This document shows, in pieces, positions 18,418 through 31,184 of a stretch of DNA of 34,269 bases (the stretch's first letter is position 1; the number at the start of each line of letters is the position of its first letter). The DNA is from Bacilli bacterium. GTDB lineage: Bacteria > Bacillota_I > Bacilli_A > RF39 > UBA660. Below the pieces are notes generated by a model that was given only the letters and a program-made list of their open reading frames with translations, ran no database searches and was not told the origin of the DNA. The stretch lies in the NCBI GenBank assembly GCA_017617435.1, contig JAFZWF010000019.1, positions 1-34,269 on the forward strand, read 5' to 3'. The position numbers were made by a program, and so were the translations under genes.

Positions 18418-18852
18418 ATGGAAAAAATTAAGAATGGTTTTACATTTGTTGAACTTCTTGCTGTAATTGCTGTTTTAGGTGTTATTATAACTTTGGCAAC
18501 TACGGCGACGGTTTCACTTTTAAATAATTCAAAGAAAAGATCAAGTAAAATATCAGCTAAAAGTTATGTAACAGCGGTAAATGATTATAATAAGATAAGT
18601 AGTGAATCTGAAAGATTTACTACAGGAAGTCCTGGGTGTACAGTTACTGGAGCAAATGTTATAAAATGTAAGGTTGCAAATGTTACACCAAAGATAAAAA
18701 ATTCTATTAGTGGCACACTTCCAACATCAGGTGATGTATACATAGATCTTACTATTAATAAAGTTGTTAGTGCTAATTTAAAAATTAGAGGATACAATGT
18801 ATCTTATACAACAAGTAATAATGGTAATGGAAAATATAGTATTGATAATTAA
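18418..18852 (+). CDS. Type IV pilin-like (pseudopilin) protein 1
   Basis: The product is 144 aa. A class III signal NGFTFVELLAVIAVLG has the prepilin cleavage point after Gly and Glu at +5 of the mature protein. A hydrophobic helix and an amphipathic extension (NNSKKRSSKISAKSYV) lead to a small globular domain with one likely disulfide (GCTVTGANVIKCKV). The C-terminal part is beta-rich (YIDLTINKVVSANLKIRGYNV). Processing needs a prepilin peptidase, and assembly an ATPase and platform protein; none is in the window. It is a single-gene unit: own promoter, and a terminator overlapping its stop. Confidence 0.88.
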   Translation: MEKIKNGFTFVELLAVIAVLGVIITLATTATVSLLNNSKKRSSKISAKSYVTAVNDYNKISSESERFTTGSPGCTVTGANVIKCKVANVTPKIKNSISGTLPTSGDVYIDLTINKVVSANLKIRGYNVSYTTSNNGNGKYSIDN

Positions 18853-22759: not shown

Positions 22760-22776
22760 TAATAAAGGTGAAAAAA

Positions 22777-23358
22777 ATGCAAATAAACGATGTAACACTT
22801 AAAAGCATTGCTGTTAGAACAAGTCAATATCCAGAAGATAATCTTCCGGAGTTTTTACTTGTTGGTCGTAGTAATGTTGGTAAAAGTAGTTTTATTAATA
22901 CATTAATTGAAAGAAAAAATTATGCTCATACTAGTAGTAAACCTGGTAAAACAACAACATTAAATTTTTATTTAGTTAATAATTTATTTTATATAGTTGA
23001 TGTTCCTGGTTACGGATATGCTATTGGTGGAAAAGAAAAACAAAAAAAGTTTGGAATGATGATAGAAGAGTACTTAAAAACAAGATCATCAATGAGAAAA
23101 GTATTTTTACTTGTTGATTATCGTCATAAACCAACAGAAGATGATATTTTAATGTATAACTTTTTAAAATATTACAATATTAGTGTTGAAATTATTGCAA
23201 CTAAATTTGATAAAGTTAATAAAAATAGTCGTAATAAACAAGATAAATTAATTAGAGAAGCATTTAATTTAACTTCTGAAAATGATTTTATTCATTTTTC
23301 TACAGTTACAAAAAAAGGAAAAGAAGAAGTTTACAAGATTATTGAAGATAATATTTAA
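22777..23358 (+). CDS. engB: Ribosome biogenesis GTPase EngB (YsxC/YihA)
   Basis: The product is 193 aa. G1 is GRSNVGKSS, G3 DVPGYG, and G4 TKFDK (usually TKADK); the KPGKTTTLNF switch I region is typical. It acts in late assembly of the 50S ribosomal subunit and is normally essential. Start ATG 22777 with AAAGGTG upstream; the in-frame GTG 22768 is part of that site. It is followed after 14 nt by pseudopilin 2, probably on one transcript. Confidence 0.95.
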   Translation: MQINDVTLKSIAVRTSQYPEDNLPEFLLVGRSNVGKSSFINTLIERKNYAHTSSKPGKTTTLNFYLVNNLFYIVDVPGYGYAIGGKEKQKKFGMMIEEYLKTRSSMRKVFLLVDYRHKPTEDDILMYNFLKYYNISVEIIATKFDKVNKNSRNKQDKLIREAFNLTSENDFIHFSTVTKKGKEEVYKIIEDNI

Positions 23359-23372
23359 AAGTTGGTGATAGA

Positions 23373-24803
23373 ATGAAAAATAAAAAGGGATTTACTATGA
23401 TAGAATTACTTGCCGTTATTGTTGTACTAGGTGTAATAATTAGTATAGCCTCTTTATCCATATCTAAAATAATGGAAAAAAATAAACAAAAAGCATATGA
23501 AACTAAGGTTGAAGTAATTTTAAAACAAGCGAAACAGTATGCCTATGATAATGAAAATATTTTCTATAATAGTGACAAAAGATTTGGTAATTATGTTTGT
23601 GAAGTTATCTCTGTTCAAGATTTAATTTCAGGTGGATACATTGATGCAAATGATAAAGAATTAGTTGATGATGTTAATGGGGATCAAGTTGTTATTACTA
23701 ATCCCTTAACACAAGAATCCATGACAACTTTAAATATTCTTTTATATATTAAATCTAAAGAAAGTCCAAGTTCACCAAAATATGATTCAGTTGGTATTTA
23801 TAATGGATCTATTGTTAGTGCACTTGACTTAGAAACTTCAGTTTGTAAGGTTGCTACAAATAAAGTTGTAAGTGAATTTGCTGATTCACAAACTGAACAA
23901 ACTATGACAATTGATAAAACTGGTACATACGTTATAGAAGCATGGGGTGCACAAGGTGGTGGAAACACTCAAGAAAACGGTGGATACGGCGCTTATGCTT
24001 ATGCTGAGGTTGATTTAACTGAAGGTCAAGTTTTATATATTAATGTAGGTGGCCAAGGAAACAATAATACAGGTGGATATAATGGTGGTGGAAATGCTGC
24101 TAATTCTGCTAACTATAAAGGTTATGGTGGAGGAGGAGCTACAAGTGTTGCTCTTCGTTCTGGTTTATTATCTACACTATCATCTAATGTAAGCGATATT
24201 TTACTTGTTGCTGCTGGTGGTGGTGGCGGAGGAACTAACGGTGCTGCTAATGGTGGTGCTGGTGGTGGTATCCGTGGAGTTAATGGTATAAATACTAATG
24301 CTGGTTCACAAGGTGGTTATGTTGGAACTGGTGCAAGTCAAACTGAAGCTGGGTATAATGCAACTCATACTGCTCAAAAAGGTTCTTTTGGACAAGGAGC
24401 AAATTACTATCCTACTGTTGATTCAAATAATGTTGCTTTAGGTGGAGCCGGAGGCGGCGGAGGCCTATATGGTGGTGGTGGATCTTGCCGTACTCATGCT
24501 GGTGCTGGTGGTGGATCTAGCTACATTGGAAATAGTGATTTAAGTAATGCAGCAGTATACTGTTATAACTGCGTTACTAGTTCTAATGAAAACACTAAAA
24601 CTATTGTAACAACAACTGTTGAAAATCAACCTGTTTCAAGAGCCGCTAAAATGGGTAATGGTTATGTAAAAATATCTCTTAAAGAAAAAGATTCTATTTT
24701 AACAATATTTGCATCTAATATTAGATATGATAATTCTCAAACTCATGTAAATTGTCAAGATGTACAATGTATGCTTGATCATATTGCAAGGCTTGTTAAA
24801 TAG
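23373..24803 (+). CDS. Pseudopilin 2 fused to an ALK-type glycine-rich domain
   Basis: The product is 476 aa. A class III prepilin signal KKGFTMIELLAVIVVLG is cut after Gly6, with Glu at mature +5. A pilin helix and small domain extend to about residue 168 with Cys76 and Cys158. Residues about 170-437 form a glycine-rich domain (IEAWGAQGGG, VLYINVGGQG, DILLVAAGGGGGG, GGAGGGGGLYGGGGS, GAGGGSSYIG, MGNGYVKISL) of the family also found in the extracellular part of ALK/LTK receptors. A C-terminal tail has Cys461 and Cys466. It is likely carried at the tip or along a short pilus-like fibre as a binding head (inference). It follows engB by 14 nt; the der promoter lies in its 3' end. Confidence 0.87.
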   Translation: MKNKKGFTMIELLAVIVVLGVIISIASLSISKIMEKNKQKAYETKVEVILKQAKQYAYDNENIFYNSDKRFGNYVCEVISVQDLISGGYIDANDKELVDDVNGDQVVITNPLTQESMTTLNILLYIKSKESPSSPKYDSVGIYNGSIVSALDLETSVCKVATNKVVSEFADSQTEQTMTIDKTGTYVIEAWGAQGGGNTQENGGYGAYAYAEVDLTEGQVLYINVGGQGNNNTGGYNGGGNAANSANYKGYGGGGATSVALRSGLLSTLSSNVSDILLVAAGGGGGGTNGAANGGAGGGIRGVNGINTNAGSQGGYVGTGASQTEAGYNATHTAQKGSFGQGANYYPTVDSNNVALGGAGGGGGLYGGGGSCRTHAGAGGGSSYIGNSDLSNAAVYCYNCVTSSNENTKTIVTTTVENQPVSRAAKMGNGYVKISLKEKDSILTIFASNIRYDNSQTHVNCQDVQCMLDHIARLVK

Positions 24804-24848: not shown

Positions 24849-26156
24849 ATGAAAAAGACCATATGTATAATTGGTAAACCAAATGTTGGTAAATCATCAA
24901 TTTTTAATCGTATGATTAAAGATAATAAATCTATTATTATGGATACACCTGGTGTTACTAGAGACAGAATATATGGAACTTGTACATATAATAATAAATC
25001 CTTCTTTGTTATTGATACTGGTGGAATTGAGATTGGTCATAATGATTTTAATGAAGATATAAAAGTACAAGCTGAACTGGCTATCGATGAATCTGATTTA
25101 ATTATGTTTGTTGTTGATGGTAAGAACGGTTTAGATGCTAATGATTATTTAATAAAAGACATGCTACTTAAATCTGGTAAAGACGTTTTATTAGTTGTTA
25201 ATAAAATTGATAATGATTCAAGAAAAGATAATGTTTATGATTTTTATGAACTTGGTTTTGAACATATAATTGCTGTTAGTGCTGAACACAATATTGGTTT
25301 TAAAGAACTATTTGATTATTTAACACTAAATATGAATGAAAATGAAGAACCTGATGAAGGTATTTTAAAGTTTACAATTATTGGAAGACCTAATGTTGGA
25401 AAATCAAGTTTAATAAATGCTCTACTAAACGAAGATAGAGTAATTATTGGTGATGTTGCTGGTACTACAAGAGATGCTGTTGATACAAGATTTACTTATG
25501 ATAAAGAAGATTATATTGCTATTGATACAGCAGGAATGAGAAAAAAAGGTAAAATATACGAGGAAATTGAAAAGTACAGTTTAATTAGAACTTTAAAAGC
25601 TATTGAAAGATCTAATGTTTGTGTCTTAGTTATTGATGCTAAAGAGGGAATAATTGAACATGATAAACATATCGCAAGTTACGCTATTGATGCTGGTAAA
25701 GGTTTAGTTCTTGTTGTAAACAAATGGGATACTGTAAAAAATCCTGATCAAGAAATAAAAAAATGGAAGGATTTAATTGCTGCAGAATTTCAATTTATTC
25801 CATATGTAAATATTGTTTTCTTATCAGCACTTAATAAAAAAAGAATACATACATTAATGCCAGAAGTAATTAATGCTTATGAAAATAATAATAAAGAAAT
25901 TCCAACATCAATTTTAAATGACGTTATTACTGAAGCTGTTACTCTTCATCCAGCTCCTTCATATAAGGGTAAAAGACTTAAAATATATTTTGTAAGTCAA
26001 ACAGGAGTTAATCCTCCTAAATTTACTTTTAACGTTAATAACAAGGGCTTAGTTCATTTTAGTTATGAAAGATATTTAGAAAATAAAATACGTGAGAGTT
26101 TTGATCTTTCAGGTACACCAATTATTTTACAGTTTAAAAATAAAAGTGATCGATAA
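24849..26156 (+). CDS. der: GTPase Der (EngA)
   Basis: The product is 435 aa with two tandem G domains: GKPNVGKSS near the N terminus and GRPNVGKSS near residue 180, each with DTPG/DTAG-type G3 and NKxD G4 motifs (NKID, NKWD). A C-terminal KH-like domain follows. It is needed for 50S subunit assembly. The ribosome binding site is a strong AAGGAGG. Its position upstream of spoIVA and hbs agrees with Bacillus gene order, although gpsA, which normally lies between, is absent. Confidence 0.97.
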   Translation: MKKTICIIGKPNVGKSSIFNRMIKDNKSIIMDTPGVTRDRIYGTCTYNNKSFFVIDTGGIEIGHNDFNEDIKVQAELAIDESDLIMFVVDGKNGLDANDYLIKDMLLKSGKDVLLVVNKIDNDSRKDNVYDFYELGFEHIIAVSAEHNIGFKELFDYLTLNMNENEEPDEGILKFTIIGRPNVGKSSLINALLNEDRVIIGDVAGTTRDAVDTRFTYDKEDYIAIDTAGMRKKGKIYEEIEKYSLIRTLKAIERSNVCVLVIDAKEGIIEHDKHIASYAIDAGKGLVLVVNKWDTVKNPDQEIKKWKDLIAAEFQFIPYVNIVFLSALNKKRIHTLMPEVINAYENNNKEIPTSILNDVITEAVTLHPAPSYKGKRLKIYFVSQTGVNPPKFTFNVNNKGLVHFSYERYLENKIRESFDLSGTPIILQFKNKSDR

Positions 26157-26562: not shown

Positions 26563-27042
26563 ATGAAGAAAAATGGATTTACATTAATAGAACTTTTAGG
26601 TGTAATTGTTATTTTGGGTATAATTATTACAATAACAATAACAAAAGTTGTACCTATCATGAATAGATCAAAATCTAAGGCATTTATAAATGATGCAATT
26701 ATTTTTTCTGAAGCTGGGAGAAATAAGTACTCAGATAATAAAATGAATCAGGTGGATACAGGGAATTTATTTAGTGGAACATCTAATGTAAATACTAAGT
26801 GTTATTCAATAGAAAGTTCTTTAATAGGACCTTACGCATCAACTGGAAATGATAATATAGTTGGTTCTGTTGAGGTGTGTGCAACTTCTGCTTGTAATTT
26901 TACTTCAAAGATATGGGTTTCTAACGGAAAATACAATATAGCTGCAGTTGAATACGAAAACTTAAAAAGTTTAAATAAATCTGTACTTGAAAGTACAACA
27001 TATTCAGAAAATTTCTTAACATGTGGAGTTGATGTAAGTTAA
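26563..27042 (+). CDS. Type IV pilin-like (pseudopilin) protein 3
   Basis: The product is 159 aa. The class III signal is KNGFTLIELLGVIVILG with Glu at mature +5, followed by a long hydrophobic helix and amphipathic region. The globular part has four Cys (CYSIESS, VEVCATSAC, LTCGVD) that could form two disulfides. Start ATG 26563 after AGGTGATG; the upstream in-frame ATG 26545 precedes that site. It lies between two sporulation genes and ends at its own terminator. Whether it is used in vegetative cells or in sporulation cannot be told. Confidence 0.87.
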   Translation: MKKNGFTLIELLGVIVILGIIITITITKVVPIMNRSKSKAFINDAIIFSEAGRNKYSDNKMNQVDTGNLFSGTSNVNTKCYSIESSLIGPYASTGNDNIVGSVEVCATSACNFTSKIWVSNGKYNIAAVEYENLKSLNKSVLESTTYSENFLTCGVDVS

Positions 27043-29174: not shown

Positions 29175-31184
29175 ATGAAAAAGAAAGAAATACAAAGAGA
29201 AGATATTAATGATGTAAACGAATCTAATTCTTTAGGTAGTGATATTAACGTTACTAACGGAAAGAAAGTTTGTTTTTTAAAAAGATTATCAAGGAAAAAG
29301 AAAATAATACTAGGTATTATTTGTTTACTTATTATGGTTGCAGCTGCAGTTTTAATTGTTCTTTTAGTTAATAAAGATAAAGATGATTCTAGCGATTCAA
29401 GTATTAAATATAAGGAATTATCTACAGCTGAATACCAAAAAAGGGTTAACGAATACGGTGAATTTGTTAAATCCGTAATGCTTGATTATTATGATAAAAA
29501 TAATAAATATCCTGTTGCTTTAGATATTATGGATTTAATTGAATCTGATAAAATAGATTGTGATGTATATATAAATAACAGTGTTGGTTATTTATTTGTT
29601 AATAAGTGCGTTATAAAAGGTTATACATATGATGGTGGTATATCTTATAGTTATGGTGAAGAGAAAAAAGATATTCCTACTATAATACCTGATGATAATG
29701 ATGAAGAAGGTATTTTAGTTGTTGATAAAAAGACTATTAATGATAACTTAAAGTATGATGGTAAGAATTATAATGCAAACGGTGAATATAAAATCAAAGA
29801 TAATAGTTTAAGCGATTTTGATTTATATTTTTTAAAAAGATCAAATAATAAACAAAACATGATTTATAGTCCACTTGCTGCTAAGTATGCTTTATCTATG
29901 CTTGATGATGGAGCAGATGGTGATTCAAAAACTCAGCTTGATAATGTTATAGGAAGTTATAAAGCTAAAAAATATACGAATAATAAAAATATGTCTGTTG
30001 CTAATGCTTTATTTATAAAGAATTCATTTAAAAATGATATTAACGAATCTTATATAAATAATGTTTCTCAGAAATATGATGCAGATGTTAAGTTTGATTC
30101 TTTTGAAAGTGCAGATGTAGTTAATTCGTATGTTTCTGATAAAACTTATGATTTAATTAAAAATGTTGCAGATGATATTTCATCTTTAGATTATATACTT
30201 CTTAATACAGTTGCAATTGATATGGAATGGGTAAAAACCATTAAACCTGTAAAACTTGATTATCTTGTTACTTTTAGTCATGAAGATTTCAGAGAGTATG
30301 TAAGTTCTTTACATTTAAGTGACTATATTGGCATTAAATTTGAAGGTTTATCAAATAAAGTTACAACAAGTGATTTTAAAGCTGTTGCAAATAAATATGA
30401 TATTGTTAAAACTCTTGGTGAAGATAACATTAGAAAAACTGTTAAAGAAGATTATTCTAAATTTTTAGAAGAAAATAGATGTGAATATTCTGATAAAGAA
30501 TTAAAAGAAGCAAAAGATAATATTGATTCATATATTGATACATATATTAGTGAAATAGATAAAGGCTATAAATATATTAGTAGTTCAACTGATTTTAATT
30601 TTTATGAAGACTCTAGCGTTAAAGTGTTTGCAAAAGATTTAAAAACATATAATGGTATAACACTACAGTATGTCGGTATCATGCCAAAAGTAAGTAGTTT
30701 ATCTGACTATGTTAAAAAAATAAATGCTTCAGAATTAAATGATATAATCAAGAATATTAAACCTATTGAATTAAGTAGTTTTGAAGAAGGCTATATAACT
30801 GTTATAACTGGTTATGCACCTTTATTTGCATTTAACTATAACATGGATTTAACAAATTATTTTAAAAGTTTAGGTATTACTGATGTATTTGATTCAACTA
30901 AGTCAAATCTATCTAAACTATCAAGTTCTTCTTATATAAGCTCTGCAAAACAAAGTACTACTATAGAATTTTCAAACGAAGGAATTAAAGCTGCTTCAGC
31001 TGTTATGATTGGAGGAGCTGGAGATGCTGGTTGTGGCTATGATTACTTATATAAAGTTCCTGTTAAAAATATAGATTTAACATTTAATAGACCTTATATG
31101 TTTATTATAAGAGATAAGAGTTCTGGTGAGGTTTGGTTTGCTGGAACAGTATACCAACCAAATGAATATACTGAAAAATATTAA
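29175..31184 (+). CDS. Membrane-anchored serpin with an extra N-terminal domain
   Basis: The product is 669 aa. A cytoplasmic head (1-41) and a membrane anchor (42-66) precede an outer domain (84-160) with a helix, KYPVALDIMDLIESDKIDC and a two-Cys beta part that resembles pseudopilin globular domains. A serpin fold occupies about 205-664: IYSPLAAKYALSMLDDGA, ANALFI, LNTVAIDMEW, LTNYFKSLGITDVFDSTKSN, hinge NEGIKAASAV (601-610), then LTFNRPYMFIIRD and FAGTVYQP. The core is longer than the usual 370-400 residues because of an insert around 360-480. The hinge has small residues at P12-P9, as in inhibitory serpins, but Ile at P14. The target protease is unknown. The ribosome binding site is AAGGAG. 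Confidence 0.88.
   Translation: MKKKEIQREDINDVNESNSLGSDINVTNGKKVCFLKRLSRKKKIILGIICLLIMVAAAVLIVLLVNKDKDDSSDSSIKYKELSTAEYQKRVNEYGEFVKSVMLDYYDKNNKYPVALDIMDLIESDKIDCDVYINNSVGYLFVNKCVIKGYTYDGGISYSYGEEKKDIPTIIPDDNDEEGILVVDKKTINDNLKYDGKNYNANGEYKIKDNSLSDFDLYFLKRSNNKQNMIYSPLAAKYALSMLDDGADGDSKTQLDNVIGSYKAKKYTNNKNMSVANALFIKNSFKNDINESYINNVSQKYDADVKFDSFESADVVNSYVSDKTYDLIKNVADDISSLDYILLNTVAIDMEWVKTIKPVKLDYLVTFSHEDFREYVSSLHLSDYIGIKFEGLSNKVTTSDFKAVANKYDIVKTLGEDNIRKTVKEDYSKFLEENRCEYSDKELKEAKDNIDSYIDTYISEIDKGYKYISSSTDFNFYEDSSVKVFAKDLKTYNGITLQYVGIMPKVSSLSDYVKKINASELNDIIKNIKPIELSSFEEGYITVITGYAPLFAFNYNMDLTNYFKSLGITDVFDSTKSNLSKLSSSSYISSAKQSTTIEFSNEGIKAASAVMIGGAGDAGCGYDYLYKVPVKNIDLTFNRPYMFIIRDKSSGEVWFAGTVYQPNEYTEKY

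Follow-up and report, generated by a model that had tools for sequence, protein, structure and literature searches.

A modular prepilin with an ALK/LTK-type glycine-rich head at a conserved locus in a family of uncultivated Bacilli

Introduction

Modular type IV pilins are an established kind of protein, 264 architectures of which have been counted in InterPro (PMC8179133), and PilB and PilC of S. sanguinis are adhesive representatives (PMC8179133, PMC9934059). Among phage fibres, the tail fibre gp24 of Pam3 has a conserved stem and a hypervariable distal tip, and a likeness to the extracellular domain of ALK (7LIR) has been reported for it (PMC9608196); gp38 of S16/PP01 is a polyglycine-II sandwich with receptor loops at the phage fibre tip (PMC12892980).

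Here we describe a prepilin gene whose pilin module is followed by a glycine-rich domain (GRD) of the ALK/LTK type, a variant that appears to be new: our literature search found no report of a GRD head on a pilin (the supplementary architecture list of PMC8179133 may contain one), of same-locus pilin orthologues with and without a head, of pili in the host family, or of an assigned function for bacterial homologues of the ALK/LTK GRD. By name, PF12810 was found in a single paper, on a fungal genome.

Results

Architecture of the gene and its product

The window, that is the whole 34,269-nt stretch that was analysed, belongs to a genome assembly of 0.93 Mb (24 contigs, 71% complete), whose uncultivated host, a member of Bacilli, probably lives in the gut; the family is uncultivated and small-genomed, with relatives from gut and rumen metagenomes. 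As the initial annotation stated, the gene lies between two GTPase genes, YsxC/EngB-like and Der/EngA, a position referred to below as slot A. All features of the window listed here are on the forward strand:

18418..18852, +: plain prepilin, the third of the window
22768..23358, +: ysxC/engB GTPase, flanking slot A upstream (Pfam)
23373..24803, +: gene of the modular prepilin (476 aa), in which an ALK/LTK-type glycine-rich domain follows the pilin module at the C-terminus
23373..23390, +: MKNKKG, leader peptide belonging to the class III prepilin signal (sequence; N_methyl PF07963; TIGR02532)
23391..23849, +: small, complete pilin module, residues 7-159 (predicted helix 9-59 and short strands; alignment)
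23850..23861, +: graft junction VATN, residues 160-163 (alignment; plain orthologues end here, ..SLCH-stop or ..SQCH-stop)
23862..24695, +: glycine-rich head, spanning residues 164-441 and matched by Pfam at 182-436 (Pfam, AlphaFold2, Foldseek, alignment)
24696..24800, +: C-terminal tail, residues 442-476, with CQDVQC (low-confidence prediction)
24849..26156, +: der/engA GTPase, flanking slot A downstream (Pfam)
26563..27042, +: plain prepilin of slot B (spoVIF-pilin-spoIVA), whose orthologues in two sister genomes bear a GRD

The intact 476-aa open reading frame begins with MKNKKG followed by FTMIELLAVIVVLGVIIS and thus carries a class III prepilin signal (MKNKKG/FTMIE), with predicted cleavage after G6 and a Glu at mature position 5. 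N_methyl (PF07963) matches it with 31.2 bits against a Pfam cut-off of 21.2, TIGR02532 with 30.6 bits, and since PF12810 likewise exceeds its curated cut-off, the fusion of prepilin signal, pilin and ALK-type GRD that had been proposed from the sequence is upheld. The pilin module aligns end to end with plain pilins of 152-158 aa encoded at the same locus in sister genomes, and the extra, non-pilin domain is joined to it by a short linker, the junction falling after C158-K159 and the GRD starting at residue 164. Pilin region and GRD form one continuous frame, and this architecture recurs in related genomes. A frameshift or assembly chimera is ruled out by the intact frame and by the sister genomes that share the architecture. 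For the C-terminal tail, no convincing homologue was found among the loci compared (best partial match E 0.025).

Elsewhere in the window, positions 29175-31184 encode a membrane-anchored protein of 669 aa that has a domain of the serpin type (protease inhibitor; PF00079, E 2e-40).

Homology and predicted fold of the head

ALK_LTK_GRD (PF12810) matches residues 182-436 with 116.6 bits (cut-off 24.5; E 2.4e-33) over nearly the whole profile (positions 6-242 of 243), and gives zero matches in 14 control genomes. When a profile built from 19 related GRDs was compared with the sequences of the PDB, ALK, LTK and scd-2 were retrieved at 1e-11 to 1e-9 (best match 1.4e-11 over about 212 positions); all other matches were short, low-scoring glycine linkers at 0.002 or worse, so that the resemblance of the head to ALK/LTK does not come down to glycine content.

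AlphaFold2, supplied with a 52-sequence alignment that excluded animal sequences and with no template, predicts a single long N-terminal helix (residues 9-59), a small body and a head that is folded, not disordered, with pLDDT mostly 92-98. In a Foldseek search of the PDB with this model, all 21 matches with E<=1e-3 are ALK, LTK or scd-2 and the next match stands at 0.12. Identity to ALK/LTK is low (17-26%), and the full-length model reaches modest TM-scores (0.3-0.46 by target length), for which the lack of a counterpart to the pilin part is at least partly responsible. The head is accordingly predicted, on a model and not a solved structure, to share the fold of the solved ALK/LTK GRDs. A glycine-composition artefact is ruled out by the blank control genomes and by PDB-profile and Foldseek matches that are specific to ALK, LTK and scd-2. 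Neither an EGF-like module, nor a transmembrane segment after the GRD, nor a kinase was found, Pfam giving only N_methyl and GRD in the frame; judged by this domain content, the 476-aa protein is not an ALK receptor.

Across an alignment of 144 heads, 11 conserved glycine-rich blocks (0.6-1.6 bits) are nearly invariant and almost free of insertions, and the intervening loops are hypervariable (3.1-3.7 bits) and also differ in length; the block and loop boundaries behind these scores were placed once the profile had been inspected, and variable loops are common to most proteins anyway. A YCYNC (CxxC) pair in the head (window 24558-24572), possibly a disulphide or metal site, is kept in genus-type heads and missing from most heads of other genera. 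Against phage records, tblastn with the head gave zero matches at 1e-5; PHROGs match the head, and among the viral structures that the model matches are virion proteins, minor tail proteins and tail-fibre proteins.

Filament machinery and other prepilins of the genome

The genome encodes a single ATPase of the PilB/GspE type, a single PilC/GspF platform protein with two domains, and a single A24 prepilin peptidase, clustered at 26-30 kb of contig C5, so that the processing and assembly genes whose presence the initial annotation had left to be checked are all there:

C5, L012: assembly ATPase
C5, L014/L015: platform
C5, L016/L017: prepilin peptidase

ATPase and platform score highest against GspE and GspF. 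PilT was not found in the genus, where only PilB-like and CpaF-like ATPases rise above the cut-off, an absence that is provisional because the genomes are incomplete; a retracting adhesive pilus is for this reason unsupported. ComEC, found in four of five genus members, accompanies what is a minimal type IV filament machinery with no PilT. With regard to the label "pseudopilin" given to the product before, pseudopilin and pilin are indistinguishable here.

At 31000-39000 of contig C17 (L097), a CpaF-like ATPase, two TadB/C-like membrane proteins and small MREATGELN pilin-like proteins make up what is probably a second type IV filament locus, of the Tad/Flp type, in which Pfam supports only the ATPase.

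At least 16 prepilin genes are spread over many contigs of the genome. Another GRD pilin, of 878 aa and with two GRDs, adjoins a 230-aa pilin on contig C1, an arrangement that recalls the PilA-PilC pair of S. sanguinis (PMC9934059); other prepilins bear List/Bact repeats, DUF285/LRR repeats or unrecognised heads, in a frame of up to 2322 aa. Giant prepilin-signal frames of 2322, 1154 and 1088 aa (respectively L019, at 5902-12867 of contig C12 of this genome; L182:10248-13709; and L185:617-3880) show no head domain that could be recognised, and behind each of them a protein of 369-387 aa is encoded.

Orthologous pilins with and without a head

The gene orders ysxC-pilin-der (slot A) and spoVIF-pilin-spoIVA (slot B) are kept in four genus members: the present genome (G000), G217, G243 and G244. 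The slot-A pilin is headed in G000 and G244 and plain in G217 and G243; in slot B it is plain in G000 and G243, and headed in G217 and in G244, where it is tripled. Alignment places the slot-A junction at ..SLCH-stop or ..SQCH-stop in plain proteins versus ..SVCK/VATNKVV.. in headed ones, and the slot-B junction at ..TCGVDVS-stop versus ..TCGVDLV/TSNIMYTF... Since the junction coincides in both slots with the last residues of the plain pilin, the whole pilin is kept and the domain has been added or cleanly lost.

Shaft and head trees are incongruent, shafts grouping by locus and heads largely by genome. In the pilin-module tree, shafts sort by chromosomal slot with four changes, the minimum possible, and the slot-A shaft of G000 is sister to that of the headless G217 protein (100/94); in the head tree, the slot-A head of G000 is sister to slot-C heads of the same genome (95/96), and the slot-C head of the sister genome G094 falls with the heads of the G094 cluster (100/100). 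A single origin of the slot-A heads of G000 and G244 is disfavoured, marginally and on long branches (p-AU 0.043).

Within the family, a prepilin lies directly upstream of der in 22 of the 67 der loci examined. Nearly all of these 22 are 126-238 aa long, and only that of the present genome carries a GRD; in the other sampled genera with a pilin at this place, the pilins have none. From these comparisons of sequence and gene order, the pilin at ysxC-pilin-der appears to be an old resident and the head a mobile newcomer, added to or lost from subunits. The essential flanks, from which the initial annotation had concluded that the gene was unlikely to be a recent acquisition, for that reason argue for the age of the shaft only: the conclusion holds for the pilin gene and fails for the head, the GRD being missing from slot A in two of the four genus members.

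Distribution of glycine-rich domains

When genome contigs were searched with this protein alone, there were zero matches; the 19-sequence alignment offered no conserved stretch, and seven closer sequences gave 80 loci. Of the 243 family genomes sampled, 114 have a GRD, as do 15 of 296 sampled genomes of the class, 14 of these 15 belonging to this family. That the prepilin-GRD fusion recurs there, which the initial annotation had proposed to survey, is evident from the 41 GRD frames with a visible start: 20 open with a canonical prepilin signal, and at least six more with a prepilin-like KGF(A/V).. start lacking Glu5. Because GRD carriers span several pilin types, the fusion probably arose repeatedly. 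In G094, eight to nine GRD prepilins form an adjacent run. The family also bears GRDs on non-pilin membrane anchors and in giant frames of 3000-6000 aa, and the GRD head therefore does not need a pilus.

Several further observations concern these and similar arrays. GRD proteins with prepilin-like starts lacking Glu5, opening like NNKGFAISSIMYSILVVFL, are found at L043, L048, L052, L055, L259, L262 and L094:3811-6027; GspK-type tip subunits likewise lack Glu5, and the proteins are possibly GspK-like tip subunits themselves. Frames of 3000-6000 aa with many GRDs occur in small-genome gut Bacilli (G223, contigs C17 (L099) and C23 (L100); G177; G212; G038). In G217, tandem arrays at about 250-263 kb and 323-336 kb of contig C1 (L095 and L096) consist of prepilins, seven to eight in number and 330-695 aa long, that have near-identical N-termini but are free of GRDs; these pilins with large heads form an expanded family. 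Segatella/Prevotella contigs (L147, L151, L155, L170 and L172) carry arrays of stand-alone GRD frames (about 200-310 aa) on alternating strands, which have in common, in the form of inverted repeats, 84 nt of almost the same sequence (up to 94%) on their 5' side; with one array lies a tyrosine recombinase (L155:5014-6192, Phage_integrase 8e-28), and the whole looks like an invertible-cassette (shufflon-like) system that switches GRD heads.

Discussion

The reading that we favour, and hold to be moderately probable, is that of a modular type IV pilin that displays an interchangeable, ligand-binding adhesin head on a pilus, of which we infer the processing, assembly, tip position, adhesion and class of ligand. 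The leader would be cut after G6 by the single A24 prepilin peptidase of the genome, and the long helix would let the subunit enter a filament built by the PilB-like ATPase and the PilC-like platform. Carried at the C-terminus of an otherwise complete pilin, the GRD would be displayed at the surface; the bulk of the head makes a place at or near the tip the most likely. There, a rigid glycine-rich scaffold with hypervariable loops may bind either a glycoprotein or glycan of the host mucosa or a neighbouring cell. Such a ligand-binding head would make the pilus an adhesin, and would probably let the fibre grip different targets. Heads would be interchangeable, with gain, loss or recombination having taken place among the pilin genes of conserved chromosomal slots. 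Given the adhesive pilins of S. sanguinis as a precedent and a head anatomy like that of phage fibre tips, a pilus-borne recognition head is the economical reading; of the surface binding or signalling first suggested, surface recognition is the better description and signalling is without support.

The same apparatus would also suit other tasks. Because it is Com-like, with a single extension ATPase and no PilT as in Com pili, and ComEC in those four genus members, the filament could be a competence pilus whose GRD head is a DNA-capturing tip module, and a modular pilin of DNA uptake, ComZ, is cited in PMC8179133. Most heads are, however, near-neutral or acidic (that studied here has a pI of 5.1, with 13 K+R versus 17 D+E), which is unusual for a DNA receptor, and several parallel GRD pilins per genome together with tandem expansion better fit ligand diversity, so that we regard DNA capture as unlikely. 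A role of the subunit as a secretion pseudopilin, with a head that selects or pushes a cargo protein, would agree with the GspE- and GspF-like scores of ATPase and platform and with short, PilT-less filaments; it seems improbable to us in view of the headless pilins at the same locus in sister genomes, the many different heads in one genome and the lack of a linked, dedicated cargo gene.

Two further explanations start from the domain itself. The GRDs of neighbouring fibres and surface proteins might pack into a matrix on the cell surface or into cell-cell aggregates with no specific foreign ligand, a structural, homotypic role to which the several kinds of GRD anchor in the same genomes, giant multi-GRD frames included, would lend themselves; homotypic packing would nevertheless favour conserved surfaces, and with loops hypervariable between paralogues and species there is little chance that this is what the head does. 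Mimicry of a host receptor, in which the bacterial GRD would bind ALKAL-type cytokines or otherwise disturb ALK/LTK signalling, has in its favour the homology to the ligand-binding GRD of these receptors. Considering that GRDs occur in bacteria and phages unconnected with animals, that Pfam finds no EGF-like module and that identity is so low, it is very improbable indeed.

Beyond the adhesin reading, it is a tentative and rather doubtful proposition that a set of conserved pilin shafts, each at its fixed locus, repeatedly acquires glycine-rich heads, and that these heads recombine between the loci of one genome and disappear again; if true, the adhesive specificity of a pilus would be diversified by intragenomic module exchange and not by point mutation alone. 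Modular pilins were previously inferred from domain lists, and here there are natural orthologues with and without a head at two separate loci, the head being joined on where the plain protein ends. This set at fixed loci should be the most useful part to the specialist, the natural pairs making the grafting of a module onto a pilin, and assembly afterwards, directly testable. One fold moreover links gut-bacterial pili, phage tail-fibre tips and ALK/LTK receptors.

Comparison with known systems

The protein resembles S. sanguinis PilB and PilC in its class III signal, small pilin module, short linker, bulky C-terminal module and monoderm host. It differs from them in that the heads of the latter are a vWA domain and a lectin instead of an ALK/LTK-type GRD, and in that orthologous pilins with and without a head are found here at the same loci. 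The minimal Com pilus of monoderms likewise has one extension ATPase, a platform and a peptidase, is PilT-less and is accompanied by ComEC, but here at least 16 prepilins with large, varied heads are scattered over the genome. With the GRDs of ALK, LTK and scd-2 (7LRZ, 7NX1, 7LIR and others), the head has in common both the sequence profile (1.4e-11) and the predicted fold; unlike these receptors, the protein lacks an EGF-like domain, a transmembrane receptor architecture and a kinase, and the carrier is a pilin. Finally, like Pam3 gp24 and S16/PP01 gp38, the head combines a glycine-rich scaffold, part of it conserved, with hypervariable recognition loops at what would be the end of a fibre, a likeness of anatomy; the phage proteins are trimeric fibres or fibre-tip proteins and not pilins.
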